From: Sphingomonas abietis
Lineage (GTDB): Bacteria; Pseudomonadota; Alphaproteobacteria; Sphingomonadales; Sphingomonadaceae
Reading direction: 5' to 3'
Length of the DNA stretch: 64,000 nucleotides
Assembly (NCBI RefSeq): GCF_027625475.1
Contig: NZ_CP115174.1
Span: 3,197,001 to 3,261,000 of the forward strand
A program made the translations under genes and the position numbers. This document shows positions 3,367 through 30,540 of the stretch, in pieces. Position 1 is the stretch's first letter. Each line of letters starts with the position of its first letter. A model generated the notes under the pieces. The model was not told the origin of the DNA and did no database searches. It saw only the letters and a list, made by a program, of their open reading frames with translations.

Positions 3367-4476
<1,110 letters not shown>

Positions 4477-9068: not shown

Positions 9069-10433
9069 ATGACCGGACCCGCCGTGCCGCCGCGCGCTAA
9101 TCCAATGCCGCACGACAGGCAATCAGACTCAGGTCTGAAACGGGTGCTCGGCAATCTCGCCCATCTGCTCGGCGGCAAGGCCGCAGCCGGCCTGATGAGC
9201 CTGGTCTATCTGGTCATCGTCGCGCGGACGCTGGGCGCGCGCGACTATGGCGAACTGGTGCTGGTCAACGGCTATGCGATCTTCATCGGCAGCCTGGTCG
9301 CCTTTTCCGGATTCCACGGCGTCGTCCGCTACGGCGCGCTGGCGATGGAGGCCGGAGACCCGGTGCGCCTCGCCCGGATCGTGCGGTTCATGGCGCTGGT
9401 CGAGGGGGTCTTCGGGCTGCTGGCACTCGCGATCGCGGTGATCGCCATCCCCTTCGTCGGCCCCCGGCTCGGCTGGTCGCCCGAAGCGATGCGGATCGCG
9501 ATCCCCTACAGCCTGGCCGTGTTCGGCGGCGTCCGCGCCACCCCGCAAGGGCTGTTGCAGATCGCCGGGCGGTTCGATCTCGTCGGGCTGCACCAGGCGG
9601 TGTCGCCCAGCATCCGGCTGATCGGCACGCTGATCGTGTGGGCCACCGGCGGCGGGCTCGATGCCTTCCTGATCGTATGGCTGCTCTCCTCGATCGCCGA
9701 GGGCGGCGCGATGTGGCTGCTCGGGCTGGTGGCATGGCGCAAGCTCGCCAGCGGCCAGCGGCTGATCGGCCCCTGGCGTGGGCTGATGCGCGACGGCCAG
9801 GGCTTCGGCCGCTTCATCCTGGTCACCAATTTCGACATCACGCTGCGCGAACTCGCGCCCAATCTGGCCCCGCTCACGATCGGCTGGATGCTCGGCCCGG
9901 TGGCGGCGGGACTCTTCTCGCTGACCCAGCGCGCCACCGCCCTGCTCCAGCAGCCGGCGATCCTGTTGTCGCAGGCGAGCTATGCGGTACTGGCCGATCT
10001 CGTCGCCAAGCGGAAGCTCGTCCAGCTGCGCAGCACGGTCTGGCGGAGCGCGGCCTTGGCGGGGACGATCGCGTCTCCCATCGTGCTGGCCTTCTGGCTG
10101 GCCGGCGACCGCCTGCTGCCGCTGGTCGGCGGCAAGACCTTCCAGGGCGGTGTCGCGATCGTGACGCTGGTGGCGGGCGCCCGTCTCGCGGCGCTGATCG
10201 CATCGCCGATCACCGCCGGGCTCACCGCGCTCGGCCGCCCGCAGCGATCGATGATGGTGACGCTCGCCACCAATCTGGCACTCTACCCGCTGCTGCCGGT
10301 GCTGATCTGGTGGCTCGGCCTGCATGGCGCCGGCCTGCACGCGCTGATCCAGAATGTGATCGCGACGGCGATGCTGATCCTGTTCTTCGCACGCGACGCC
10401 CGCGATCCGGCGACGCCGCGCCGCACCGCCTAG
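9069..10433 (+). CDS. Wzx-type polysaccharide flippase (MOP superfamily)
   Basis: A 454-residue polytopic inner-membrane protein with about 12-14 hydrophobic helices, beginning LAHLLGGKAAAGLMSLVYLVIV, which matches the start of polysaccharide-exporting MOP/Wzx proteins. It should flip an undecaprenyl-linked oligosaccharide to the periplasm. AGGGGG lies just upstream of the chosen ATG; a second ATG at codon 13 is possible. No polymerase (Wzy) or chain-length regulator is visible in the locus. Its end overlaps the convergent LacI gene by four bases. Confidence 0.87.
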   Translation: MTGPAVPPRANPMPHDRQSDSGLKRVLGNLAHLLGGKAAAGLMSLVYLVIVARTLGARDYGELVLVNGYAIFIGSLVAFSGFHGVVRYGALAMEAGDPVRLARIVRFMALVEGVFGLLALAIAVIAIPFVGPRLGWSPEAMRIAIPYSLAVFGGVRATPQGLLQIAGRFDLVGLHQAVSPSIRLIGTLIVWATGGGLDAFLIVWLLSSIAEGGAMWLLGLVAWRKLASGQRLIGPWRGLMRDGQGFGRFILVTNFDITLRELAPNLAPLTIGWMLGPVAAGLFSLTQRATALLQQPAILLSQASYAVLADLVAKRKLVQLRSTVWRSAALAGTIASPIVLAFWLAGDRLLPLVGGKTFQGGVAIVTLVAGARLAALIASPITAGLTALGRPQRSMMVTLATNLALYPLLPVLIWWLGLHGAGLHALIQNVIATAMLILFFARDARDPATPRRTA

Positions 10434-11455
10434 AGGGGCGGCGGGGCCGCCGTGCTGCCGCGCACGATCAGTTCGTAGGGCAGTTCGCGCCGGAAACGGG
10501 GATCGGTGGGCGCATCGCGATAGCTCGGATCGATCAGGATATCGACCGCCGCCGCCGCCATCTCGCCCACCGGCTGACGGATGGTGGTGATCGGCGGCCA
10601 CGCGACGCGCGCCGTCGGCCCGTCATCGAAACCGGCGATTGACAGTTGGCCCGGCACCGCGATGCCCCGCCGGGCGGCGGCCGCCGACACGCCGAGCGCC
10701 ATATCGTCATTGCTGGCGAAGATCGCGGTCGGGCGGGTTGCCCGGCCGAGCAGCGCCTCGCCCCCGTCGAGCCCGCCCCGAAACGTGAAATCGCCCGGCA
10801 CGATGCGATCGCGATCGACCGGCAGCCCGGCCCCGTGCATTGCGGACAGGAAGCCGGCACGGCGCTTGGGGGTCGCCGCGTGGCTGGGTATCCCCTCGAT
10901 CAGGCCGATGTCGCGATGGCCGAGATCGATCAGGTGCCGGGTCATCGCGAACGCCGCCCCCTCCTCGTCGATATCGACGGACCCCGATCGCTGATGATCC
11001 TTTCCCGGCGAGATGAGGACATAGGGCAGACCGATCCCGTCCAGCATGTCGAGCAACGGCGGCATCGCGCAGAGCGGCGGCGCCAGAATGGCACCATCGA
11101 GGCGCAGGCTGGCGATGCTCGCCATCAGATCGGGCTCCCATCCGTCGGTGCCGGTGTCCAACGGCTCGACGACGAGGTGATAATGCCGTTCCCGGCAGCG
11201 GATCAGCGCCCCGCGCTGCATCCCGGCCGCATAGCCCGACCAGGCCGGATCATCGAGGAACAGCCCGAGCAGATAGGAGCGCGCGCTGGACAGGCTGCGG
11301 GCGAAGGCATTGGGCCGATAGCCCAGCTCCTCCACCACGCGCATCACCGCTTCGCGCACGGCGGTGCGGACATGCGCCTCGCCGTTCATCACGCGCGACA
11401 CCGTCTTGGTCGATACCCCCGCCCGTTCCGCCACGTGCTTGATGGTGATCGTCAT
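10430..11455 (-). CDS. LacI-family transcriptional regulator
   Basis: A 341-residue repressor. The LacI HTH is at the N-terminus (TIKHVAERAGVSTKTVSRVMNGE), followed by the hinge RPNAFARSLSS and a sugar-binding periplasmic-protein-like core with FASNDDMALGV and the late IAGFDDGP. The start ATG overlaps the stop of the upstream sugar permease gene (ATGA), so the two form one transcript and the ligand is probably the sugar moved by that permease. It is the only LacI-type gene in the window and thus a candidate, not proven, for the operators in the hemicellulose locus. Confidence 0.93.
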   Translation of the reverse strand: MTITIKHVAERAGVSTKTVSRVMNGEAHVRTAVREAVMRVVEELGYRPNAFARSLSSARSYLLGLFLDDPAWSGYAAGMQRGALIRCRERHYHLVVEPLDTGTDGWEPDLMASIASLRLDGAILAPPLCAMPPLLDMLDGIGLPYVLISPGKDHQRSGSVDIDEEGAAFAMTRHLIDLGHRDIGLIEGIPSHAATPKRRAGFLSAMHGAGLPVDRDRIVPGDFTFRGGLDGGEALLGRATRPTAIFASNDDMALGVSAAAARRGIAVPGQLSIAGFDDGPTARVAWPPITTIRQPVGEMAAAAVDILIDPSYRDAPTDPRFRRELPYELIVRGSTAAPPPL

Positions 11456-18531: not shown

Positions 18532-19755
18532 TCAGACGAGATCGAGCGCTACCGGTCGGGTGTCGGGAAACACCGTGGCGAGCCGATTGCTCCCTAGTCC
18601 GAACTGGCGCTGGACGATGCCGCCGATGAGCTCCCGATAGTCGGTCAGCACGGGCAGGTCGCGCTGCTGGTTGAGCGTCTCGGCGGTGATCCGCACCTGC
18701 GGGCCGGCGATCCGGCCGCCGCGCACGCCGCCGCCGATCACCCAATAGACGCTGCCATGGCCGTGGTCGGTGCCCTTATCGCCATTTTCGCGGAAGGTCC
18801 GCCCGAATTCGGAAACCACCACGACTGTGGTGTCGCGCCAGGCGTCCGGGCCGATTTCCTGCGCGAAGCCGGCGAGTCCACGGCCCAACTCGCCGATCCG
18901 GCCGGCAAGATAGCCCTGCGCGCCGCCCTGGTTGACGTGCGTATCCCATCCGCCGACATCGACGAAGGCGAGATTATATTGTTCGCGCATCAGCGTGCCG
19001 ATCCGGCGGGCGGAGAGCTCGAACCCCTTGGGAGTGACCGCGCCGCGGCTTGCCTGCGTCATCTCGTCGGCAAGCGACTTGAACACCGTCTCACGCGTCG
19101 CGAAGCCTTCGGCGACCGCATCGGCGAGAGCCGCATCGCCCAAGCGATTGGTCGTGTACATCGCCTCGATCAGCTTCGCCTCGCGCGGGTCGATCGTCGG
19201 CTTTAGGTTGCCGTTGAGGGCGATGTTGGGAATGGGCTGGTTCGCCATGCCCTGGAAGCAGAGCGGCACCTGTGCCGAGAAGGCCATCGGCCGATCCGTG
19301 CCGAGCGCGACCGCCAGCCGGGCCATGAAGCCCGAGCGGAAGTCGCGCGATCCTGCAATCGGTTGGCCGAGCTCGATCGTATCCTGCGTCTCGAAATGGC
19401 TGCGGCTCATGTCGTCGGTCCCCGCGAACGGCACGAATGCGATCTGCCGCTTCTGCCACAGCGGATAGAGACTGTCCCTCAGTGCCGGGTGCATCGCCCA
19501 GTCTCCGTCGAGCGGCAGCGCGGCGTCCGGATTGGACGGATCGGGGGCGTGCAACCCAATCGTCGGTCGCGCCTGGTGGTAGAAGTCGCTGCCGACCGGC
19601 GCGACGATGTTGGCGGCATCATAGGCACCGCGCAGGAAGACCAGCAGCAGGCGTCCCGATCCGGCGGCGGGCGTTGCGAACGCGCGACCGGCGACGATCA
19701 TCGGAGCGAAGGCGGCAGCGGCCTTGAGCAGGTCTCGGCGATGCATGATGCTCAT
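18532..19755 (-). CDS. DUF1501 protein, exported by Tat
   Basis: A 407-residue protein of the DUF1501 (alkaline-phosphatase/sulfatase-like fold) family. The N-terminus HRRDLLKAAAAFAPMIVAGRAFA reads as a twin-arginine-type export signal, with cleavage near residue 28. LLLVFLRGAYDAANIVAP, the RSHFETQD segment and VVVVSEFGRTFREN with KGTDHGHG are characteristic of the family. Its reaction is unknown. It follows the DUF1800 gene by 6 bp; the two families are usually found as a pair, so they probably act together in the periplasm. Confidence 0.9.
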   Translation of the reverse strand: MSIMHRRDLLKAAAAFAPMIVAGRAFATPAAGSGRLLLVFLRGAYDAANIVAPVGSDFYHQARPTIGLHAPDPSNPDAALPLDGDWAMHPALRDSLYPLWQKRQIAFVPFAGTDDMSRSHFETQDTIELGQPIAGSRDFRSGFMARLAVALGTDRPMAFSAQVPLCFQGMANQPIPNIALNGNLKPTIDPREAKLIEAMYTTNRLGDAALADAVAEGFATRETVFKSLADEMTQASRGAVTPKGFELSARRIGTLMREQYNLAFVDVGGWDTHVNQGGAQGYLAGRIGELGRGLAGFAQEIGPDAWRDTTVVVVSEFGRTFRENGDKGTDHGHGSVYWVIGGGVRGGRIAGPQVRITAETLNQQRDLPVLTDYRELIGGIVQRQFGLGSNRLATVFPDTRPVALDLV

Positions 19756-19761
19756 CTCCTT

Positions 19762-21303
<1,542 letters not shown>

Positions 21304-22317
21304 CGCCTTCGTATCCAAAGCGCCCGCGACCACGGAGCGCCCGATCACTGTGCGGTCAGAATGATGAATGCTCTCCGAATATCCCAAGGGAAGTGGAACG
21401 AGCAGGTGGGATGCTATCGACCGCCTACCGCAAAAGCTGCACAGCTAGGCCATGAACAATCCCAGACCATCGCGAACATCGTGTTCGAACATGATCGTCA
21501 CCGCAAAGCCCAGCCATACCAGCACACAGCGTCCACGGATGCTCGGTTTGATGGGCATCTTCGGGTCTGCGTTCGGGATTGCTGCCGAGAGTCGTTGATC
21601 GGCAAGGCCTCGCAATCCTGCGGTCGACCGCATCGACAGCGGGAAGACCCACAAAGCGACATCAACGCCGTCCCAAGCTGACCTTCGCTCTGGAAGAGAT
21701 CTTACCGATGCCGCGTGGCGCCTGATCGCGCCGCATCCATCCCCCTTCGACCATGCCGACGGCGGCGGTGGTCGATGCGTCGGATCAATGAGGCGATCCT
21801 CTATGTGCTGCGATCCGGCTGTCCCTGGCGGCTTCTGCCCGACAGCTTTTCGCCGTGGGGCACCGTTTATGGGTGGTTCTCCGAATTGCGTGACGGTGGC
21901 GTGTTAGAGAGCCTGAACCATCATCTGGTTCCGCGCGATCGTGCCCGCCTCGGTCGCGCGCCCTGCCCATCGGCCGCCGTGATCGATCGCCAAAGCGTGA
22001 AGACGACCGAGGCGGGCGGGCCGAAAGGCTAAGATTCTGACAAGAAGGTCATGGGGCGCAAGCGCCACGCCATGACCGAAACCGATGGGCGCGCCTTCCA
22101 ACTGCTCGTTCATCCAGCCGACGTGCAGGACCGCAATGGCGCGGCACCGCTCCCCGGCAGCCTCCTAAGTCCGCACACATTCTCAAAACATATTGCCTCG
22201 GCCCGAAAATATTGATCTGAGTTATACTCTAACCTTTATTTTGTGAATCGAGCCAATGCGTGGACCCGGAGGGACCAGCGATAAGTTGAGCAGGTCCACT
22301 ATTGAAGGGTCAGTTTG
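21304..22317. other. 1-kb region with only a transposase remnant
   Basis: Apart from the IS5-type remnant described separately I see no supportable gene. A 69-codon minus-strand frame ending near 21445 contains a hydrophobic CVLVWLGFAVTIMF segment but has no clear ribosome site. The AT-richer stretch at ~22190-22240 is a reasonable place for the promoter of the DUF2383 gene, but no box could be assigned. Confidence 0.5.
21690..22150 (+). pseudogene. IS5-family transposase remnant
   Basis: Pieces of an IS5/IS427-group transposase are readable: LTDAAWRLIAPH in one frame, then after a frameshift RRINEAILYVLRSGCPWRLLP, WGTVYGWFSELRDGGV and AAVIDRQSVKTTEAGGPKG, an in-frame TAA where a Tyr codon is expected, then DSDKKVMGRKRHAM and VHPADVQDRNGA. 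The second half is missing. Ends are not visible, so no terminal repeats or target duplication can be given. The element cannot move by itself. Confidence 0.85.
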
Positions 22318-22770
22318 ATGAGCAACGATCATGACATCAAGACGCTGAACTCGCTGATCGAAACGGTCATCGATAGCGCGGACGGCTATACGGAGGCGTC
22401 AAAGGCCGCCCAAGGCTCGCGTTTCGAGGAGATCTTCCGGCGTCGCGGCGCCGAGCGCCAGCAACTGACGACCGAATTGCAGGGCAAAGTCCGATCGCTG
22501 GGCGGCGAGCCCGAGAGCGACGGCACGCTGTTGGCCGGTGCCCATCGCCTGTTCCTCAATCTGCGGAACAGCATGTCGAGCGACGACACGACCATCGTCG
22601 ATCAGGTCGAGGCGGGCGAGGATCACATCAAGCACAAGTTCGAGGACGCCCAGCGCGACAAGGAACTGAGCCCGGCGACGCGCGCCGACATCGATCGGGC
22701 CTATCTGATCGTGAAGGCCGGGCATGACGAGATCCGCGATCTCAAGCACGCCCTGCACGCAAGCGGCTGA
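22318..22770 (+). CDS. DUF2383 four-helix-bundle protein (PA2169 family)
   Basis: A 150-residue helical protein of the ferritin-like PA2169/DUF2383 family. DIKTLNSLIETVIDSADGY is the typical helix 1; FRRRGAERQQLTTELQ the helix 2 signature. In other bacteria such genes are often stress-linked, but their function is not established. MSNDHD is taken as the start, with GAAGGG upstream. It stands alone between the transposase remnant and the glycosyltransferase operon. Confidence 0.88.
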   Translation: MSNDHDIKTLNSLIETVIDSADGYTEASKAAQGSRFEEIFRRRGAERQQLTTELQGKVRSLGGEPESDGTLLAGAHRLFLNLRNSMSSDDTTIVDQVEAGEDHIKHKFEDAQRDKELSPATRADIDRAYLIVKAGHDEIRDLKHALHASG

Positions 22771-22898: not shown

Positions 22899-24008
22899 TT
22901 GCGGATAGCGATCATTGCGCATCTCAAACACGCGATCGGCGAGCCGTTCGCGGGCGGTCTTGAGACGCACACCCACATGCTGGCAAAGGCTCTGCAGCGC
23001 CGTGGGCATGCCGTTACGGTCTTCGCCTCGACCCGATCGGATCCGGCGCTCGGCGTCGAGGCGATCTGCGACGAGACGTCGCTGCTGACGACGGGAACCG
23101 ACGAGGCGAACGACGTCGCCTTCTTTCGCGAGCACCACGCCTATCTGCGGCTGATGACCGCGTTGCGCACGCGCGATTTCGACGTGATCCACAACAATTC
23201 GCTGCATTATCTGCCGGTCAGCATGGCGGATACCCTCGCCACGCCGATGGTGACGACCCTGCACACGCCGCCCTTCTGTTGGCTGGAAAGCGGGATGAGA
23301 CTGGGTGCCGGCGCGTCGCGCTTTGCGGCGGTGTCGACTGCGACCGCACGGCTCTGGTCGCACGTGGCATCGGTCGATCACATCGTGTCCAACGGCATCG
23401 ATCTCACCCATTTTCCCTATCGCGCGACACCGGACCCCGAGCCGTATCTGGTCTGGTACGGGCGGATCGTGCCGGAAAAGGGGCTCGATCTCGCGATCGA
23501 TGCCGCCCGGCGCGCCGGCCTCCCGTTGCGCATCGCCGGCCCCATTTCCGATCGCGCCTTCTTCGCCGCCCACATTGCACCGCGACTGGGGCCAGATATC
23601 GTCCATGTCGGCCATCTGTCGCACGAGGCGCTGGCCCGTCTCGTCGGCGGTGCGCGGGCAGCCCTGTGCTCTCCGCGCTGGGAGGAACCCTACGGCCTCG
23701 TGGTCGCCGAGGCGCTGGCCTGTGGCACGCCGGTCGCCTCCTTCCGGCGCGGCGGCGTACCCGACATCGTCGACGCGTCGTCCGGAATCCTCGCCGAGCC
23801 GGATGACGTCGATGCGCTCGCCGCTGCGGCGCGACAGGCGATGGCGCTCGACAGGTCCGCCTGCCGCCGCCGGGCGGAAGCGTGCTGCGACGCCGAGCGG
23901 ATGGTCGATGCCTATGAACGGATTTATGCCGACATGGTCGCACAACCGCTACGGCTGGTCAGACCCGCGACGCCGACGGACCTCGAGCCGATCCTGAGCG
24001 TCGCCTGA
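22899..24008 (+). CDS. GT4-family glycosyltransferase, first gene of amino-sugar-type operon
   Basis: A 369-residue GT-B enzyme. The N-terminal GGLETHTHMLAKALQRRG, VIHNNSLHYLP and TTLHTPPFCWLES are acceptor-side landmarks; VWYGRIVPEKGLDLAI starts the donor domain and PRWEEPYGLVVAEALACG holds E-x7-E. The start is TTG, with AAGGGAG nine bases upstream. The stop overlaps the next start by one base (TGATG). It opens a run of seven genes joined by overlaps or gaps of a few bases. Donor and acceptor are unknown. Confidence 0.9.
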   Translation: MRIAIIAHLKHAIGEPFAGGLETHTHMLAKALQRRGHAVTVFASTRSDPALGVEAICDETSLLTTGTDEANDVAFFREHHAYLRLMTALRTRDFDVIHNNSLHYLPVSMADTLATPMVTTLHTPPFCWLESGMRLGAGASRFAAVSTATARLWSHVASVDHIVSNGIDLTHFPYRATPDPEPYLVWYGRIVPEKGLDLAIDAARRAGLPLRIAGPISDRAFFAAHIAPRLGPDIVHVGHLSHEALARLVGGARAALCSPRWEEPYGLVVAEALACGTPVASFRRGGVPDIVDASSGILAEPDDVDALAAAARQAMALDRSACRRRAEACCDAERMVDAYERIYADMVAQPLRLVRPATPTDLEPILSVA

Positions 24009-24910
24009 TGCGCCCATTCTGCGTCTGCGTGCCGGCGCGCAACGAGGCGAAGCATATCGCGACGCTGATCGATGCGCTCTCGACGCAGACGATCGCGGAG
24101 CCGGTGCGGCTCGCATTGTGCGTCAACAACAGCGACGACGACACGCTCGGGGTTGCGCAGTCGGCGGCCGAAGCCAGCGATGGCCGCGTCGTGCTCGACG
24201 CGATCGAGCGCGCCTTCCCGCCGCCACTCGCCCACGCCGGCTCGGCGCGGCGTGCAGCGATGGAGCTTGGCGCGGAGCGGATCGGCGACCATGGCCTGCT
24301 GATCTCGACCGATGCGGACTGCCGCCCGCCGCCCGCATGGATCGTGGCCAACCTCGCATCAGCCGCGCAGGACGAACTCATCGTGGGCGGCCGGATCGAT
24401 CTCGACGATCGCGAACCGGCGCCACCGGCCCTGTTCGGGCTGAAGCAGCGGTTCGATCGCTATTGGGAGCAGGTGCGCGCGATCGAGGATGCGGTCGATC
24501 CGCTGGCCTGGGATCCGGCGCCGCGTCATGGCGACCATACCGGCGCCAGCCTGGCGCTGGGCGTGGCGCTCTATCGTCGCGCCAGCGGTGTTCCCTTGCT
24601 GGCGACGGGCGAGGATCGCGCGCTGGTCGAGGCGGCGATCGCGGTCGGTGGGCGGCTCGTCCATCCGGTCACGGTCTCGACGCGGGTTTCGGCGCGCACC
24701 GTCGGGCGCGCCGCGGACGGGATGGCGCTGGAAATGCGTCGCTGGATCGAGGCGATCGAGGACGGTCGCACGCCGCTGGTTCCCGCCTTCGATCATTGGC
24801 GTGAACGCGCCGATTGGCGTCGCCGGATGCGCGCCGGCCACGCCGATGTCGCGAATGCGGAGCACCTGTTGCCGGCGATGCCGTGCGACATGGCCCTGCC
24901 GGAGCGGTGA
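24008..24910 (+). CDS. GT2-family glycosyltransferase
   Basis: A 300-residue GT-A enzyme. CVCVPARNEAKHIATLIDALSTQ is the usual GT2 N-terminus, VNNSDDDT lies at the nucleotide-binding strand and ISTDADCRPPPAWI contains the metal-binding DxD-type motif near residue 100. GDHTGASLALGVALYRR and TGEDRALVEAA (an ED motif, likely catalytic base) follow. No membrane helix is visible, so it is probably cytoplasmic. Confidence 0.85.
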   Translation: MRPFCVCVPARNEAKHIATLIDALSTQTIAEPVRLALCVNNSDDDTLGVAQSAAEASDGRVVLDAIERAFPPPLAHAGSARRAAMELGAERIGDHGLLISTDADCRPPPAWIVANLASAAQDELIVGGRIDLDDREPAPPALFGLKQRFDRYWEQVRAIEDAVDPLAWDPAPRHGDHTGASLALGVALYRRASGVPLLATGEDRALVEAAIAVGGRLVHPVTVSTRVSARTVGRAADGMALEMRRWIEAIEDGRTPLVPAFDHWRERADWRRRMRAGHADVANAEHLLPAMPCDMALPER

Positions 24911-24914
24911 CGGC

Positions 24915-25967
24915 ATGACGCGACCGATCGGCTATTATGTCCATCATCAGGGCGACGGGCACCGCCAGCGCGCGCTCGCCATCGCCCGCGCAGCAGGAGG
25001 CGCGGTGACGTTGCTCGGCACCGGGCTCGCCGGGCGGACGGGCGCGATTCCCGCCGTCGATCTGGCGGATGATCGCGTGTCCGGCGATCTGTTCGATGGC
25101 CGCGATCATGGCGACCGGCCCGCCTCCCTGCACTACGCCCCGACTGACCATGACGGCATCCGGCGGCGCGTGGCGCAGATCAGCGGGTGGATCGCCGAGG
25201 CGCGCCCGGCGCTGATGGTGATCGACGTCTCCGTGGAGGCAGCGATGCTGGCGCGGCTGGCGTCGGTGCCGACGGTCTATGTGCGGCTGAATGGCCTTCG
25301 TGACGATCGTCCCCATCGCGAGGCATTCGACGCCGCGGCGGCGCTGCTCGCGCCTTTTCACGCGGCGCTCGACGATGCGGCGATACCGCAAGCCGTGCGA
25401 CGGAAGACATTCTACGCGCCCGGCATCGTCGTGCCGACCGCCGTAACGAGCGCCGATCCCGGCCTCGTTCTCGGTGTCGTCGGTCGCGGCGGCGGCACAG
25501 GAGACGGGACGCTATGGGCTGAGGCTGCGCGATCCGTTCCCGAACGGCGCTGGCGGGTGATCGGCCCGTGTAGCGTACCGAAGCATCCTCCGGCCAATCT
25601 CGAAATATGCGGATGGGTCGATGATGCCGATCGGATGATTGCGCAAGCGGGTATCGTCGTCGGTGCGGCGGGCGACGGGCTGGTCGGATCGGTGATCGCC
25701 AACCGCCGCCCCTTCCTGTGCCTGCCCGAGCCACGCCCTTATGCCGAGCAGACGTCCAAGGCAGCGCGACTGTCGGCGCTGGGCGCGGCCGTCGTCGCCC
25801 CTTGCTGGCCTGCCCGCGACGATTGGCGCGATTTGCTCGACCGCGCCGCTGCGCTCGATCCCGCCAAGCTCGCATCGCTCGACATGACGGACGGCGCGGG
25901 CCGCGCGGCGCGGTGGCTGCAGGCGCTCGCCGACGCGCCAGACGAACAGAGGAGAATGACGGCATGA
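24915..25967 (+). CDS. GT-B glycosyltransferase, GT28/MurG-like
   Basis: A 350-residue protein. The N-terminus GYYVHHQGDGHRQRALAIARA has the GxGH arrangement of glycosyltransferases related to MurG and MGDG synthase. The C-terminal half carries ICGWVDDADRMIAQAGIVVGAAGDG and PFLCLPEPRPYAEQ, similar to the donor-binding part of GT28. The gap to the preceding gene is 4 bases; the next gene overlaps by ATGA. Acceptor unknown. Confidence 0.8.
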   Translation: MTRPIGYYVHHQGDGHRQRALAIARAAGGAVTLLGTGLAGRTGAIPAVDLADDRVSGDLFDGRDHGDRPASLHYAPTDHDGIRRRVAQISGWIAEARPALMVIDVSVEAAMLARLASVPTVYVRLNGLRDDRPHREAFDAAAALLAPFHAALDDAAIPQAVRRKTFYAPGIVVPTAVTSADPGLVLGVVGRGGGTGDGTLWAEAARSVPERRWRVIGPCSVPKHPPANLEICGWVDDADRMIAQAGIVVGAAGDGLVGSVIANRRPFLCLPEPRPYAEQTSKAARLSALGAAVVAPCWPARDDWRDLLDRAAALDPAKLASLDMTDGAGRAARWLQALADAPDEQRRMTA

Positions 25968-27070
25968 CTCCGACACCGGCGGTGCGTCCCGGCGAACAAG
26001 GCGATCTGGTCGAGCAACTCGCGGCGCTGGGCGCGCGCCACGACGCCGCGCCACGCTTTCCCGCGGAGAGTCTGCGACTGCTCTCGGACGACGGACTGCA
26101 TCGCCGGTTCGCGCCGATTGCGGCCGGGGGCGAGGCGTTCGCCGATGAGCGCGCGCGCCACGATGCGATCCGCGATGCGTTGCGCGTGGTCGGGCGCGGC
26201 GATCTCAGTGTCGGCCGTCTCTACGAGGGTCATGTCAACGCGCTGCTGCTGTTCGGCTGGTATGCGACGCCGGCACAGACGGCGTGGCTGTCCGATGCGC
26301 TCGATCGGGACGCCTGGTTCGGCGTCTGGGCGAGCGAACCGCCGCCGGGCGTCCGCCTGGTCCCTAGTGACAGCCCGATGCTCGACGGCGCCAAGCATTT
26401 CGCCAGCGGTGCGGGCGGCCTCGATCACGCGCTGGTCACCGTCGCGATCGAGGGCGACGGGCGCGGTCTCGCGATCGTGCCTGCCAATGATCCCGCACGC
26501 ACGGACAGCAGCGGCTGGCGCGTTCGCGGCATGCGCGCGAGCGTCAGCGGCCGCTATGACCTGACCGGCCTCGCGATCGCGCCATCGATGCTGCTGGGGG
26601 CGCCCGGCGATTATGATCGCGATCCGCGCTTCACGGCCGGCGCCTGGCGGTTTTGCGCGGTCCAGCTCGGCGGGATCGAAGCGTTGCTCACCGAAGTGCG
26701 CCGATCGTTGGGGGACGCCGCCCGCGCGGACCCGATCGCGCGCGCGCGTTTCGCCGATGCGCTCGTCGCGACGCGAACCGCCGGCTTCTGGGTCGCGGAG
26801 GCCGCCGCCCGCACCGCCGACGAGCATCCCGACGCCGTCCCGGTGGCACGGCTCGCGCGCGGCGTGGTCGAGCGTGCCGGGCTCGATGTGATGGAGGCCG
26901 CCGCCCGCTTGCTCGGCACGCGCAGCGCGTTCGACGGCCAGCGCGCGGACAAGATCATCCGCGATCTCTCGCTTTACCTGCGCCAGGCCGGTCCGGACCA
27001 TGCCCGCGACGAGGCTGCGCTGGCCTGTCTCGAGCATGACCCATGGCCGGCGGGCGATCGGCTGTGGTGA
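25964..27070 (+). CDS. Acyl-CoA-dehydrogenase-fold flavoprotein
   Basis: A 368-residue member of the acyl-CoA dehydrogenase/flavin monooxygenase superfamily. WFGVWASEPPPGVRL with LDGAKHFASGAGGLDHALV forms the flavin-contacting beta domain; DGQRADKIIRDLSLYLRQAGPD corresponds to the C-terminal helical domain. I do not see the usual catalytic Glu loop of true acyl-CoA dehydrogenases (EGT-type motif), and the RD..LRQ ending looks more like the flavin monooxygenase branch (HpaH, DszC, amino-sugar N-oxygenases such as KijD3). Assignment to either branch is inference. It sits between a glycosyltransferase and a deacetylase gene. Confidence 0.8.
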   Translation: MTPTPAVRPGEQGDLVEQLAALGARHDAAPRFPAESLRLLSDDGLHRRFAPIAAGGEAFADERARHDAIRDALRVVGRGDLSVGRLYEGHVNALLLFGWYATPAQTAWLSDALDRDAWFGVWASEPPPGVRLVPSDSPMLDGAKHFASGAGGLDHALVTVAIEGDGRGLAIVPANDPARTDSSGWRVRGMRASVSGRYDLTGLAIAPSMLLGAPGDYDRDPRFTAGAWRFCAVQLGGIEALLTEVRRSLGDAARADPIARARFADALVATRTAGFWVAEAAARTADEHPDAVPVARLARGVVERAGLDVMEAAARLLGTRSAFDGQRADKIIRDLSLYLRQAGPDHARDEAALACLEHDPWPAGDRLW

Positions 27071-27735
27071 GAGCCGAGCCGCTCACAGGCAGCGTCTGGG
27101 CCCGCGCCCGCTGGGTGGTCATCGCCCCGCACCCGGACGACGAAACGCTCGGCGCTGGCGCGCTGATCGCTCAGGCGGCGGCGGCAGACAGGTTCGGCGG
27201 CGTCGTCTACCTGACCGACGGAACGGGATCGCATCCTGCGGGCACGCCCCGTCTCGCATCGATCCGCCGAGCAGAAGCCCGCACCGCGATCCACCGCCTG
27301 ATCGCTGAAAGCCCCTCCATTACGCGCATGGGCTGGCAGGATGCGCGCCCGCATGATCCGGCCAGCGCGCGCTTCGATCGCGATGCCCGCCGGCTCGGCG
27401 CGCTGCTCCGTCGTAGCCGTATCGACGCGGTCGCGGTGACGGGGCCCAGCGAGCGCCATTGCGATCATGTCGCGGCCTATTGGCTAGCCGAGGCCGCGAT
27501 CCGCCACGCACGCCGCCGCGTTGCACTGTTCCTCTATGGCGTCTGGGGCGACCCGCCCGGTAACGGTTGCCGCCTGCTGCGGACCCGTCCGCTCGCGCCG
27601 GGCATCAGGCGCCGCGCGCTCGCCGCGCATCGCAGCCAGCTCTCGCTCGCTTATGGCGCAGGATTCCGGCTTCCCCGCGCCAAGCAGCGGATGCCGCCGG
27701 CCGACATCCTCTGGCTTCGGGAACCGAACCGATGA
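27067..27735 (+). CDS. PIG-L/LmbE-family N-deacetylase
   Basis: About 222 residues from a GTG that overlaps the preceding stop (GTGA); an ATG eight codons earlier is the alternative start. Zinc-site motifs of the PIG-L family are present: IAPHPDDETLGAG and ERHCDHVAAYWLAE. Family members remove the N-acetyl group from GlcNAc-type substrates (GlcNAc-PI, GlcNAc-Ins). Here the substrate is presumably the sugar added by the operon's transferases. The C-terminal half is rich in Arg. Confidence 0.9.
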   Translation: MRAEPLTGSVWARARWVVIAPHPDDETLGAGALIAQAAAADRFGGVVYLTDGTGSHPAGTPRLASIRRAEARTAIHRLIAESPSITRMGWQDARPHDPASARFDRDARRLGALLRRSRIDAVAVTGPSERHCDHVAAYWLAEAAIRHARRRVALFLYGVWGDPPGNGCRLLRTRPLAPGIRRRALAAHRSQLSLAYGAGFRLPRAKQRMPPADILWLREPNR

Positions 27736-28316
27736 GCGCACGATCGAGCCTCGATGCCGCCTATTTCGACGGCATCTTCGACGGTGACGATGATCCGTGG
27801 GATCTCGCCTCGAGCGACTATGAGGCGAGCAAGTTCGAGCGGACCCGCGCCGCTCTGGCCGGCCGACGCTATCGCCGGGCGATCGAGATCGGCTGCGCGC
27901 ATGGGGTGCTGACCAGTTATCTGGCGCCGCTGTGCGACGATCTGCTCGCGATCGATATCAGCGACAAGGCGCTCGCCAGGGCGCGACGGCGCGTCGGCGA
28001 TCGATCCGGTGTGACCTTCGCGCATAGGGCGTTTCCGGGCGAGGCGCCCCGGACGCCCGGCTTCGATCTCGCGATCCTGTCGGAGGTCGCTTATTATTGG
28101 AGCGTGGTCGATCTCGATCGCGCGGCCGCGTGGCTGCGCACGCACATCGCCCCCGCCGGTCGGATCGTCCTGGTCCACTTCACCGGCAAGACCGACTATC
28201 CGCACAGCGGCGACGAGGCGGTGGAGACCCTGTGGCAGAATCTGGGGGCCGATTTCACATCCATCGTCGCGCAGCGCTACGACCGCTATCGGCTCGACCT
28301 GTGGGAAAGGCGATGA
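27732..28316 (+). CDS. NodS-like SAM-dependent methyltransferase
   Basis: A 194-residue class I methyltransferase resembling NodS, which N-methylates the deacetylated sugar of rhizobial Nod factors. YFDGIFDGDDDPWDLASSDYE, AIEIGCAHGVLTSYLAPLCD (SAM-binding glycine motif), LLAIDISDKAL and LAILSEVAYYW occur in the NodS order. ATGA overlap with the deacetylase gene places it directly after the step that would expose a free amine. Actual substrate unknown. Confidence 0.87.
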   Translation: MSARSSLDAAYFDGIFDGDDDPWDLASSDYEASKFERTRAALAGRRYRRAIEIGCAHGVLTSYLAPLCDDLLAIDISDKALARARRRVGDRSGVTFAHRAFPGEAPRTPGFDLAILSEVAYYWSVVDLDRAAAWLRTHIAPAGRIVLVHFTGKTDYPHSGDEAVETLWQNLGADFTSIVAQRYDRYRLDLWERR

Positions 28317-29161
28317 ACGGCGTCTCGGTCCTGACGCTGGTCCGCAACCGGGCGGCGCATCTCGATAATCTCGTCGAGGGCCTGTCACGAAGCGATCGCC
28401 GGCCCGACGAGCTCGTCGTGATCGACATGAGCGACGAGCCCGTGACGCCCGGCGCCCAAGCCTTTCCGGTCCACATCGAGCGCATGCCGACGCAGGGGCT
28501 CCCGCTGGCAGCCGCGCGCAACCGCGCCGCCGCGCTCGCGCACCACGATCGGCTCGTCTTCCTCGATGTCGACTGCATACCGACGGCTGCGTGTATCGGG
28601 CGCCTCGCCGACGCGCTCGAGCGCCAGGACGCGCTGCTCTGCGCGGATGTCCGCTATCTCGGCCCGGGCGATGCGTCGCCCGGCTGGACGGAGGACAGCC
28701 TGCTCGCCCGCGGCCGGGCGCATCCCGTTCGGACCTTTCCCGCCCACGGCCTGCGCGAGGAGCCCAACCCCGGCCTGTTCTGGTCGCTGGCCTTCGCGAT
28801 CCGCAAGCGGCGTTTCGAGGCGCTGGGGGGCTTCGACGAACGCTTCGTCGGCTATGGCGGAGAGGACACCGATTTCGGCTTCCGCGCCGCGGCGGCTGGC
28901 CTTCCGCTGCTGTTCGTCGGCGGGGCGATCGCCTGCCACCAACATCATGACAGCTACGAGCCGCCCGTGCAGCATGTCGCCGACATCGTGCGGAACGCGA
29001 CCATATTTCACGCGCGATGGGGTCGCTGGCCGATGGAAGGATGGCTCGACGCCTTCGCCGCGATGGGGCTCGTGCGCTGGACCGATCAAGAGCTGGTGCT
29101 GCGTCGCCCGCCGACGCAGGACGAGCATGACGCGACCCGATCGAGTTGGCCGCTGCAATAG
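28313..29161 (+). CDS. GT2-family glycosyltransferase (galactosyltransferase-like C-terminus)
   Basis: A 282-residue GT-A enzyme, last of the operon. SVLTLVRNRAAHLDNLVEGL is the N-terminus, LVFLDVDCIP holds the DxD motif near residue 84, and FVGYGGEDTDFGFRAAAAG is the GWGxED-type motif common to galactosyl- and N-acetylgalactosaminyl-transferase domains. It overlaps the methyltransferase gene by ATGA. A 9-bp hairpin ~100 bp downstream may end the transcript. Confidence 0.87.
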   Translation: MNGVSVLTLVRNRAAHLDNLVEGLSRSDRRPDELVVIDMSDEPVTPGAQAFPVHIERMPTQGLPLAAARNRAAALAHHDRLVFLDVDCIPTAACIGRLADALERQDALLCADVRYLGPGDASPGWTEDSLLARGRAHPVRTFPAHGLREEPNPGLFWSLAFAIRKRRFEALGGFDERFVGYGGEDTDFGFRAAAAGLPLLFVGGAIACHQHHDSYEPPVQHVADIVRNATIFHARWGRWPMEGWLDAFAAMGLVRWTDQELVLRRPPTQDEHDATRSSWPLQ

Positions 29162-29286: not shown

Positions 29287-29424
29287 GTTTCGACCTTCAA
29301 ACGCCCCTTGGCGTCCACTGCTCGGGCCGCTTGGAGACGACCGCGCCGAAGATGATGCGACGCAACAAAAGGTGGCGGAGTGACGTTGGTCTTTCGATCA
29401 CCCATTCAGGAGCGGAGACCGACC

Positions 29425-30540
29425 ATGTTCGGACGGACCAAGAAAATACGCTATGCCGTCGTCGGCGGGGGCCAGATTGCGCAACAGGCGTTCATGCCCG
29501 GCATCGGCCGTACCAACAATTCCGTACTGGCGGCATTGGTGACGGGTGACCCGGTGAAGGCCGATGCGCTTGCTGGCCTATACGCAATCAAATCCTGGAA
29601 ATATGAGGAATATGACGCGCTGCTGAGATCGGGCGAGATTGACGCCGTCTATGTCGCTACGCCGAATTTCCTGCATACGCCCTATGTATTGGCTGCGCTC
29701 GAGGCCGGTATCCACGTCCTCCTCGAAAAGCCGATGACGTCGAGCGTCGAAGATGCCGAGCAGATACTCGCCGCCCAGAAGAAGAGCGGCGCCAAGCTGA
29801 TGATCGCCTATCGCCTCCACCATGAACCGGGAACGGTCGAGATGATCACGCGTGCGCGCAACGGCGAATTTGGCGACCTGAGGGCGTTCACCGCGACCTT
29901 CGCCCAGAATGTCGCGGAAGAGAATTCGCGCGGCCACAATGGCTATTGGGGCGGCCCGGTCCCCGACATGGGCACCTATCCGCTCAATGCGGTACGTAAT
30001 CTGTTCGGCGAGGAGCCCATCGCCGTCTATGCGGTCGGCACGAAAACGGCTGGCCGGACCTTCAATTTCGATGACACCGTCGCGGTCACGCTGCGCTTCC
30101 CGGGCGACCGCCTGGCGCAATTCACGGTCAGCTATGCGACCGCGCCTGCCGAAAGCTTCACGCTGGTGGGAACGAAGGCCACAATCCATGCCGCCCCCTG
30201 CTTCATGTTCGGCCCGAAGATCGGCATTTCCTACACGGAAACCGACGGCGAAGGCAGCAAGACCCACAATTTCGATCCGGTCGAGCAGTTTGGCAACGAG
30301 ACGCAGTATTTCTCGGACTGCATCCTGAACGACCGTCATCCGGAGGCCGATGGCGAGGAAGGTCTGTTTGACCTGCGCGTGCTCGCCGCGATCGAGCGCG
30401 CTCTACAGACAGGCGAGACCGTGAAGCTCGATCCCGTCCGGCGCAGCCGTCATGTCCAGCCTGATCAAGCGCTCTCGCTCAAACCCGCCAAGGAGCCGAC
30501 CGAAGAGGAGATGATCAGCATCGTGCCTCAATCGGCCTGA
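29425..30540 (+). CDS. Gfo/Idh/MocA-family oxidoreductase
   Basis: A 371-residue NAD(P)-dependent sugar-type dehydrogenase. The Rossmann motif AVVGGGQIAQQAF is at ~12-24; VATPNFLHTPYV and the EKPM motif near residue 105 (LLEKPMTSS) mark the dinucleotide domain; GGPVPDMGTYPLNAVRNLFG is the usual catalytic-side segment. The start MFGRTKKIRY follows AGGAGCGGAGA; an upstream in-frame ATG is less likely. Substrate unknown; the closest resemblance by length is to glucose-fructose oxidoreductase-like enzymes without an export signal. Confidence 0.9.
   Translation: MFGRTKKIRYAVVGGGQIAQQAFMPGIGRTNNSVLAALVTGDPVKADALAGLYAIKSWKYEEYDALLRSGEIDAVYVATPNFLHTPYVLAALEAGIHVLLEKPMTSSVEDAEQILAAQKKSGAKLMIAYRLHHEPGTVEMITRARNGEFGDLRAFTATFAQNVAEENSRGHNGYWGGPVPDMGTYPLNAVRNLFGEEPIAVYAVGTKTAGRTFNFDDTVAVTLRFPGDRLAQFTVSYATAPAESFTLVGTKATIHAAPCFMFGPKIGISYTETDGEGSKTHNFDPVEQFGNETQYFSDCILNDRHPEADGEEGLFDLRVLAAIERALQTGETVKLDPVRRSRHVQPDQALSLKPAKEPTEEEMISIVPQSA

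Follow-up and report, generated by a model that had tools for sequence, protein, structure and literature searches.

A seven-gene operon of Sphingomonas abietis that joins glycosyltransferases to an ACAD-fold, PIG-L and NodS-like cassette and may produce a modified small glycoside

We analyzed a stretch of 64,000 nucleotides of Sphingomonas abietis (positions 3,197,001 to 3,261,000 of the forward strand of NZ_CP115174.1, hereafter the window), whose genome is a single contig of 4.43 Mb, and within it an operon of seven genes on the forward strand that extends from 22899 to 29161 (Table 1). The genes encode four glycosyltransferases (GTs), a flavoenzyme of the acyl-CoA dehydrogenase (ACAD) fold, a PIG-L deacetylase and a NodS-like methyltransferase, and they are joined by overlaps of 1 or 4 bases and one 4-base gap, as a preliminary description of this DNA had already stated. 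The arrangement is not due to chance, because the same gene order recurs in other genera. The family labels given there to the GT4, PIG-L, NodS-like and both GT2 products lie above the Pfam cut-offs, the ACAD label is weak, and the third gene has a GT-B fold according to its model. The PIG-L gene has an alternative start at ATG 27043, which would give a 28-base overlap with the ACAD gene. The named relatives of the window's proteins belong to the Sphingomonadales, with Brevundimonas lower down.

Table 1. Genes of the operon and its immediate neighbors (positions in the window).
Feature	Position	Strand	Remarks
PA2169 family four-helix-bundle (DUF2383) protein	22315..22770	+	directly upstream; neighbor only
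GT4 glycosyltransferase	22899..24008	+	TTG start; Pfam GT4 above cut-off
GT2a, GT2 glycosyltransferase	24008..24910	+	1-base overlap with GT4; Pfam 27.7 bits vs cut-off 23.3
GT28/GT1-like GT-B glycosyltransferase	24915..25967	+	4-base gap after GT2a; without Pfam match; AlphaFold model
ACAD-fold flavoenzyme	25964..27070	+	4-base overlap with GT28-like; Pfam ACAD 25.0 vs cut-off 22.4
PIG-L (LmbE-type) de-N-acetylase	27067..27735	+	GTG start; 4-base overlap with ACAD; above Pfam cut-off
NodS-like S-adenosylmethionine-dependent methyltransferase	27732..28316	+	4-base overlap with PIG-L; above Pfam cut-off
GT2b, GT2 glycosyltransferase	28313..29161	+	4-base overlap with NodS-like; above Pfam cut-off; MftF/EpsD-like by weak matches
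Gfo/Idh/MocA oxidoreductase	29380..30540	+	directly downstream; neighbor only

The nearest solved relatives of the GT4 product are 7fg9, the top match, and the tetrahydrobiopterin glucosyltransferase 5ze7, and enzymes of the latter kind are among its best solved relatives (E 1.4e-40 and 1.7e-35). GT2a scores 32.3 bits with the HpnB model (cut-off 379) and gave no match in the PDB up to E 0.1, while GT2b resembles EpsD, HfsG and chondroitin synthase weakly. The GT28-like product gave no Pfam match and no credible sequence match in the PDB, even by profile; its AlphaFold model (predicted local distance difference test score 91) folds like CalG3, OleD and MurG, which identifies it as a predicted GT-B fold of the GT1/GT28 kind. 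Elsewhere the same genome has another copy of the GT4 gene (locus L005 in our own numbering, 9684-10988, about 1437.7-1439.0 kb), identical at 74% of DNA positions over about 1 kb. The other six genes do not accompany it; in its vicinity are genes for an extracytoplasmic function-type sigma factor, for a stress protein of the YflT type and for a GGDEF/EAL protein.

The ACAD fold of the 25964-27070 product was confirmed, and the label given in the preliminary description is correct to that extent; the usual dehydrogenase base is missing, which that description overlooked. The EGTNEI region near the C-terminus, which contains the catalytic glutamate of acyl-CoA dehydrogenases, has glutamine at the glutamate column in 31/31 cassette rows (among them the gene of the window itself, L066, and a gene that appears two times, as L055 and L074) and glutamate in 6 of the 7 comparison rows, a comparison of this one column. 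Isovaleryl-CoA-type enzymes carry the base at an alternative site. The best solved sequence matches of the protein are the flavin monooxygenases DszC and TdsC, with a nitrososynthase and DnmZ lower down, although the DszC- and SfnB-type equivalog cut-offs were missed (31.8 vs 850 and 32.8 vs 430.9 bits). Judged from its sequence, the enzyme is more likely to be a monooxygenase than a dehydrogenase.

The PIG-L and NodS-type identities proposed earlier were borne out by intact motifs. In PIG-L, residues H22, D24, D25, E26, H131, D133 and H134 are kept in 27/27 aligned rows; the HPDDE motif reads HSDDE in one row and HADDE in three, with H, D, D and E retained throughout, and the HxDH motif is intact. 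This gene is the sole PF02585 match found in the genome, and its closest NCBIfam model is BshB1 (40.2 bits vs cut-off 182.5). Residues D21, P22, W23, E118 and Y121 of the NodS-like protein are kept in 30/30 aligned rows, and its closest named methyltransferase family is NodS, at 74.1 bits, where the equivalog cut-off is 300; weak matches to many further methyltransferase models were obtained as well. A role in anti-phage defense was considered and rejected, the methyltransferase alone having matched the methyltransferase-like part of PADLOC mad2 (48.7 bits).

A scan of named genomes for the GT28-like gene gave at least 42 loci, and all seven genes were matched in 21 of them, so that the check proposed in the preliminary description, a search for conserved gene order, found the genes kept together. 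The hosts of these loci are Sphingomonas, Sphingobium, Stakelama, Brevundimonas, Bosea, Methylopila, Hansschlegelia, Chenggangzhangella and metagenome-assembled genomes of Hyphomicrobiales; the genes are split over two strands in L015, and GT2b is in pieces in L017. One further locus (L010) gave no GT2b match and another (L039) has no cassette, by which we mean the ACAD-fold, PIG-L and NodS-like genes. The GT module without an adjoining cassette accounts for 19 of the at least 42 loci, every one in Methylobacterium, although some of these loci end close by; three of the 19 have GT2b and a weak PIG-L match on the opposite strand. Within the host's own genus the full operon was found in 4/10 genomes, a cassette with at most a GT2a-type match nearby in 2/10 and no cassette-type match in 4/10, and in some hosts the operon is also plasmid-borne. 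Because its presence in the genus is patchy and its modules are found apart, the operon is an accessory one built of two modules, GT4-GT2-GT28-like and the cassette, and since each module also occurs separately it may join two pathways. On a Sphingobium xenophagum plasmid that carries the operon, the GT28-like gene is annotated in two pieces (L059, 10914-11962).

The cassette is the core, and the GTs that accompany it differ by lineage. We searched 299 Pseudomonadota genomes with the ACAD-fold protein, obtained matches in 55 of them at E <= 0.001 and read the best 30 loci, in which 17/17 cassette-type ACADs adjoin PIG-L and/or NodS (12 both, 4 NodS only, 1 PIG-L only) against 0/13 of the other ACADs; a canonical ACAD above the 80-bit line (L083) was counted with the latter for its EGTNEI, a decision made post hoc. 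The pairing of PIG-L with NodS pointed out in the preliminary description is thus real, but the core is wider and includes the ACAD-fold gene. In the Sphingomonadaceae 38/298 genomes matched at E <= 1e-12, and the 30 loci read contained PIG-L in 30, NodS in 29, a GT2a-type gene in 25, and GT28-like and GT2b genes also in 9. In the family of a Pseudomonas-like genome (G375, placed as Pseudomonas by its PIG-L), 15/59 genomes matched and 12/12 loci read have ACAD, PIG-L and NodS in that order. Among plasmids 70 records matched, and PIG-L and NodS were present in 10 of the 11 read, a selection that leaves out the 18 Acinetobacter records. Nostoc has all three cassette genes and a GT2a-type gene. 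The ACAD of Deinococcus radiodurans has an additional N-terminal part fused to it; PIG-L comes next, then one gene on the opposite strand and, beyond it, NodS. The protein distance matrices of ACAD, PIG-L and NodS correlate at 0.82-0.86 (permutation maximum 0.16) over 74 loci that were picked for holding all three proteins, thus leaving out L061, L070, L072, L075, L080, L081, L153 and others; such a correlation is what three proteins that travel together would show, although part of it is owed to the common ancestry of the hosts.

Some loci depart from this pattern. A plasmid of Methylobacterium FF17 (L061, 8884-10050) has a cassette-type ACAD with neither PIG-L nor NodS within 9 kb, and L070, L072, L080 and L081 contain ACAD-NodS pairs with no PIG-L within about 1.5 kb, NodS preceding ACAD in L080. 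The D. radiodurans protein (L060, 7543-8742) has an N-terminal part of 400 amino acids with no Pfam match, which looks glycosidase-like by eye; used as a query in the genome of the window it matched nothing, in a search that had no positive control. A second PIG-L gene follows directly behind the cassette of a Pseudomonas-type genome (L171, 11808-12620). Fusions of PIG-L and NodS were not found among the best 120 of 1039 PIG-L matches, all 120 of which have 252-257 amino acids and PIG-L only, and whose named hosts are Pseudomonas.

To describe the genomic setting we surveyed 32 loci, which are between 9.7 and 31 kb long; GT4 and GT28-like genes are present in 30 of them and the cassette only in two (L141, L142), L061 being outside the set. 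A KatE catalase occurs in 12/32 loci (by weak fragments in L006), and in five of these loci GT4 and GT2a have the catalase gene, on the same strand, between them. Genes of the DUF892 YciE/F type occur in 7/32, Crp-type regulators in 12/32 and the PA2169 family in 3/32; besides the window, L042 and L097 have this family. A gene that occurs one or two times in 4-5 Mb would by chance fall within a given 20-kb segment in about 1% of cases, a figure obtained by arithmetic and not from a measured control. In the window itself no KatE was found within 10 kb of the operon. The Bradyrhizobium cassette has Ku, LigD and RpoH nearby, as well as a Gfo/Idh/MocA gene; catalase, Hsp20 and LigD lie near the cassette on a Novosphingobium plasmid, and catalase also on Sulfitobacter and Sphingobium plasmids. 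In the G375 family GlgX (6/12) or LigD (4/12) is directly upstream on the same strand, neither having been seen in 2, and L171 has the order TreZ-MalQ-TreY-GlgX-ACAD-PIG-L-NodS-PIG-L without any match to the GT profiles. According to a study of Pseudomonas aeruginosa (PMC8084333), trehalose from such an operon provides osmotic tolerance and alpha-glucan provides desiccation tolerance; the words acyl-CoA, deacetylase and methyltransferase are absent from its main text.

Control by EcfG was considered as well and rejected. The form scanned was GGAAC-N15-18-CGTT, the alphaproteobacterial EcfG motif, and the strict motif was found 0 times in the window and in 0/42 of the upstream regions of the at least 42 loci. 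A relaxed GGAAC form lies at -134 to -156 in L013, L014, L018 and L019. Examples of the promoter form are given in PMC6599016, which also lists an EcfG-dependent GT operon of Sphingomonas melonis Fr1 (#3505-3509) and a 25-mer readable as LEALADR, like the WLEALG/WLQALAD ends of the GT28-like family. A search with this 25-mer (<=3 mismatches) in 397 genomes of the family matched 27 genomes, and 0/29 of the short loci encode a GT28-like gene, so that an orthologue in the Fr1 operon is an unproven lead.

Around the operon of the window, an apparently truncated fragment of an IS4/IS5-family transposase (DUF4096) lies at 21715-22032, upstream of the PA2169 gene, and a DUF1501/DUF1800 gene pair at 18532-21387 on the reverse strand. 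A tRNA was the sole match of the Rfam scan, and the scan for promoters and terminators yielded nothing above chance.

Our preferred reading, for which we judge the chances of being right and of being wrong to be about equal, is that this stress-associated operon makes a small glycoside (or a short oligosaccharide) with an amino sugar that is de-N-acetylated, N-methylated and probably oxidized by a flavoenzyme. The four GTs would assemble a saccharide on a small acceptor, PIG-L would remove the N-acetyl group from a residue of the N-acetylglucosamine (GlcNAc) type, the NodS-like enzyme would methylate the freed amine, and the ACAD-fold enzyme, more probably a monooxygenase than a dehydrogenase, would oxidize that residue. 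Deacetylation followed by N-methylation of an amino sugar would be the simplest use of a PIG-L and a NodS-type enzyme together. A small soluble glycoside is favored because by their Pfam labels none of the seven genes encodes a flippase, a polymerase or an exporter, the last as the preliminary description had noted. The product may be exported by genes outside the seven; in L013, L014 and L019 a possible exporter gene of the ABC type (ABC_membrane_2; in L014 SbmA/BacA is matched too, more weakly) lies upstream of GT4. As the neighbors are often stress genes, a point that the preliminary description had missed, a stress role is suggested, and the product may help the cells to withstand oxidative, osmotic or desiccation stress.

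The alternative that survives best, although we think it unlikely, is that a surface polysaccharide or glycolipid is made or decorated, the GTs forming the repeat and the cassette modifying its GlcNAc. The presence of four GTs and the weak resemblances of GT2b fit such a role, but the seven genes include no initiating transferase, flippase or polymerase, the GT28-like fold is nearest to natural-product GTs, the solved relatives of GT4 include small-molecule glucosyltransferases, and in L171 the cassette stands beside GlgX without any GT match. Slightly more doubtful is a pathway in which the ACAD-fold enzyme and the methyltransferase modify something other than the sugar, such as an acyl or amino-acid side chain, while PIG-L is an amidase for a non-sugar amide. 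PIG-L-family proteins can cleave other amides, and the many weak matches of the methyltransferase would agree with this, while the repeated company of GTs and the position of NodS as the closest named family speak against it. A photoprotective or antioxidant pteridine glycoside, for which GT4 would transfer glucose to a tetrahydropterin before the remaining enzymes lengthen and alter the sugar, draws on the tetrahydrobiopterin glucosyltransferases among the relatives of GT4, but we consider it improbable: the top match, 7fg9, is named only 'Glycosyl transferase', the annotations of the neighborhoods read mention no pterin gene, and the cassette frequently occurs without this GT4. The mycothiol- or bacillithiol-like thiol pathway, which the preliminary description had offered as its alternative for the combination of GT4 with PIG-L (nearest model BshB1), was rejected as very improbable, with GT4 at 36.8 vs 462.5 bits for MshA and 42.5 vs 273.7 for BshA, every thiol-family score far under its cut-off, neither a ligase nor an acetyltransferase among the seven genes, and BshC not found in the genome (with a control positive in 3 genomes; MshC was not searched for).

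A bolder form of the preferred reading, a small glycoside whose de-N-acetylated and N-methylated amino sugar is N-oxygenated by the base-less flavoenzyme, would be an undescribed and widespread stress metabolite; we put it forward tentatively and would not expect it to be right. In this form its genes would stand next to those for trehalose/glycogen, catalase and end joining in Sphingomonas, Bradyrhizobium and Pseudomonas relatives, with the cassette also in Deinococcus and cyanobacteria. If the preferred reading is right, many environmental bacteria, with the cassette present also in D. radiodurans and in genomes of the Pseudomonas family, share an uncharacterized small-molecule pathway tied to stress survival, and the base-less ACAD-fold enzyme would be a new catalyst for amino-sugar chemistry. 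The product can be searched for directly because the cassette gives a clear three-gene signature. The enzymes belong to known families; neither their combination nor its stress setting came up in the open-access literature, where, judged by titles and abstract openings, no paper describes the gene set, most subscription papers lying outside that literature.

Comparison with known systems places the operon beside several of them. Its methyltransferase shares Pfam PF05401 and the solved relative 3ofj with NodS, but it is far below the equivalog cut-off, its deacetylase partner is PIG-L, and no NodA, NodB or NodC match is found among the seven genes, so that the operon is not a Nod-factor cluster as such, in agreement with the preliminary description. 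The search for NodB (polysaccharide deacetylase type) and NodC was made at E 0.01 in these seven genes and not in the rest of the genome, and that for NodA gave no match in the genome, yet none in 14 control genomes either. The BshB and MshB deacetylases have the PIG-L family and its conserved motifs in common with the operon's PIG-L, which differs in its low BshB1 score and in the lack of a thiol-pathway ligase beside it. UDP-glucose:tetrahydrobiopterin glucosyltransferase is the closest solved relative of GT4 with a stated acceptor, a kinship seen in the sequence, while the neighborhoods read name no pterin genes. CalG3, OleD and MurG resemble the predicted fold of the GT28-like protein, which differs from these GT1/GT28 enzymes in having no credible sequence match. 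With acyl-CoA dehydrogenases the flavoenzyme shares the fold, but not the catalytic glutamate at the EGTNEI-region column. From DszC, TdsC and SfnB it differs with about 20% identity and scores far under the SfnB and DszC cut-offs, but with these enzymes and with the KijD3/DnmZ-type nitrososynthases it shares both the ACAD fold and the absence of a glutamate at the dehydrogenase site.

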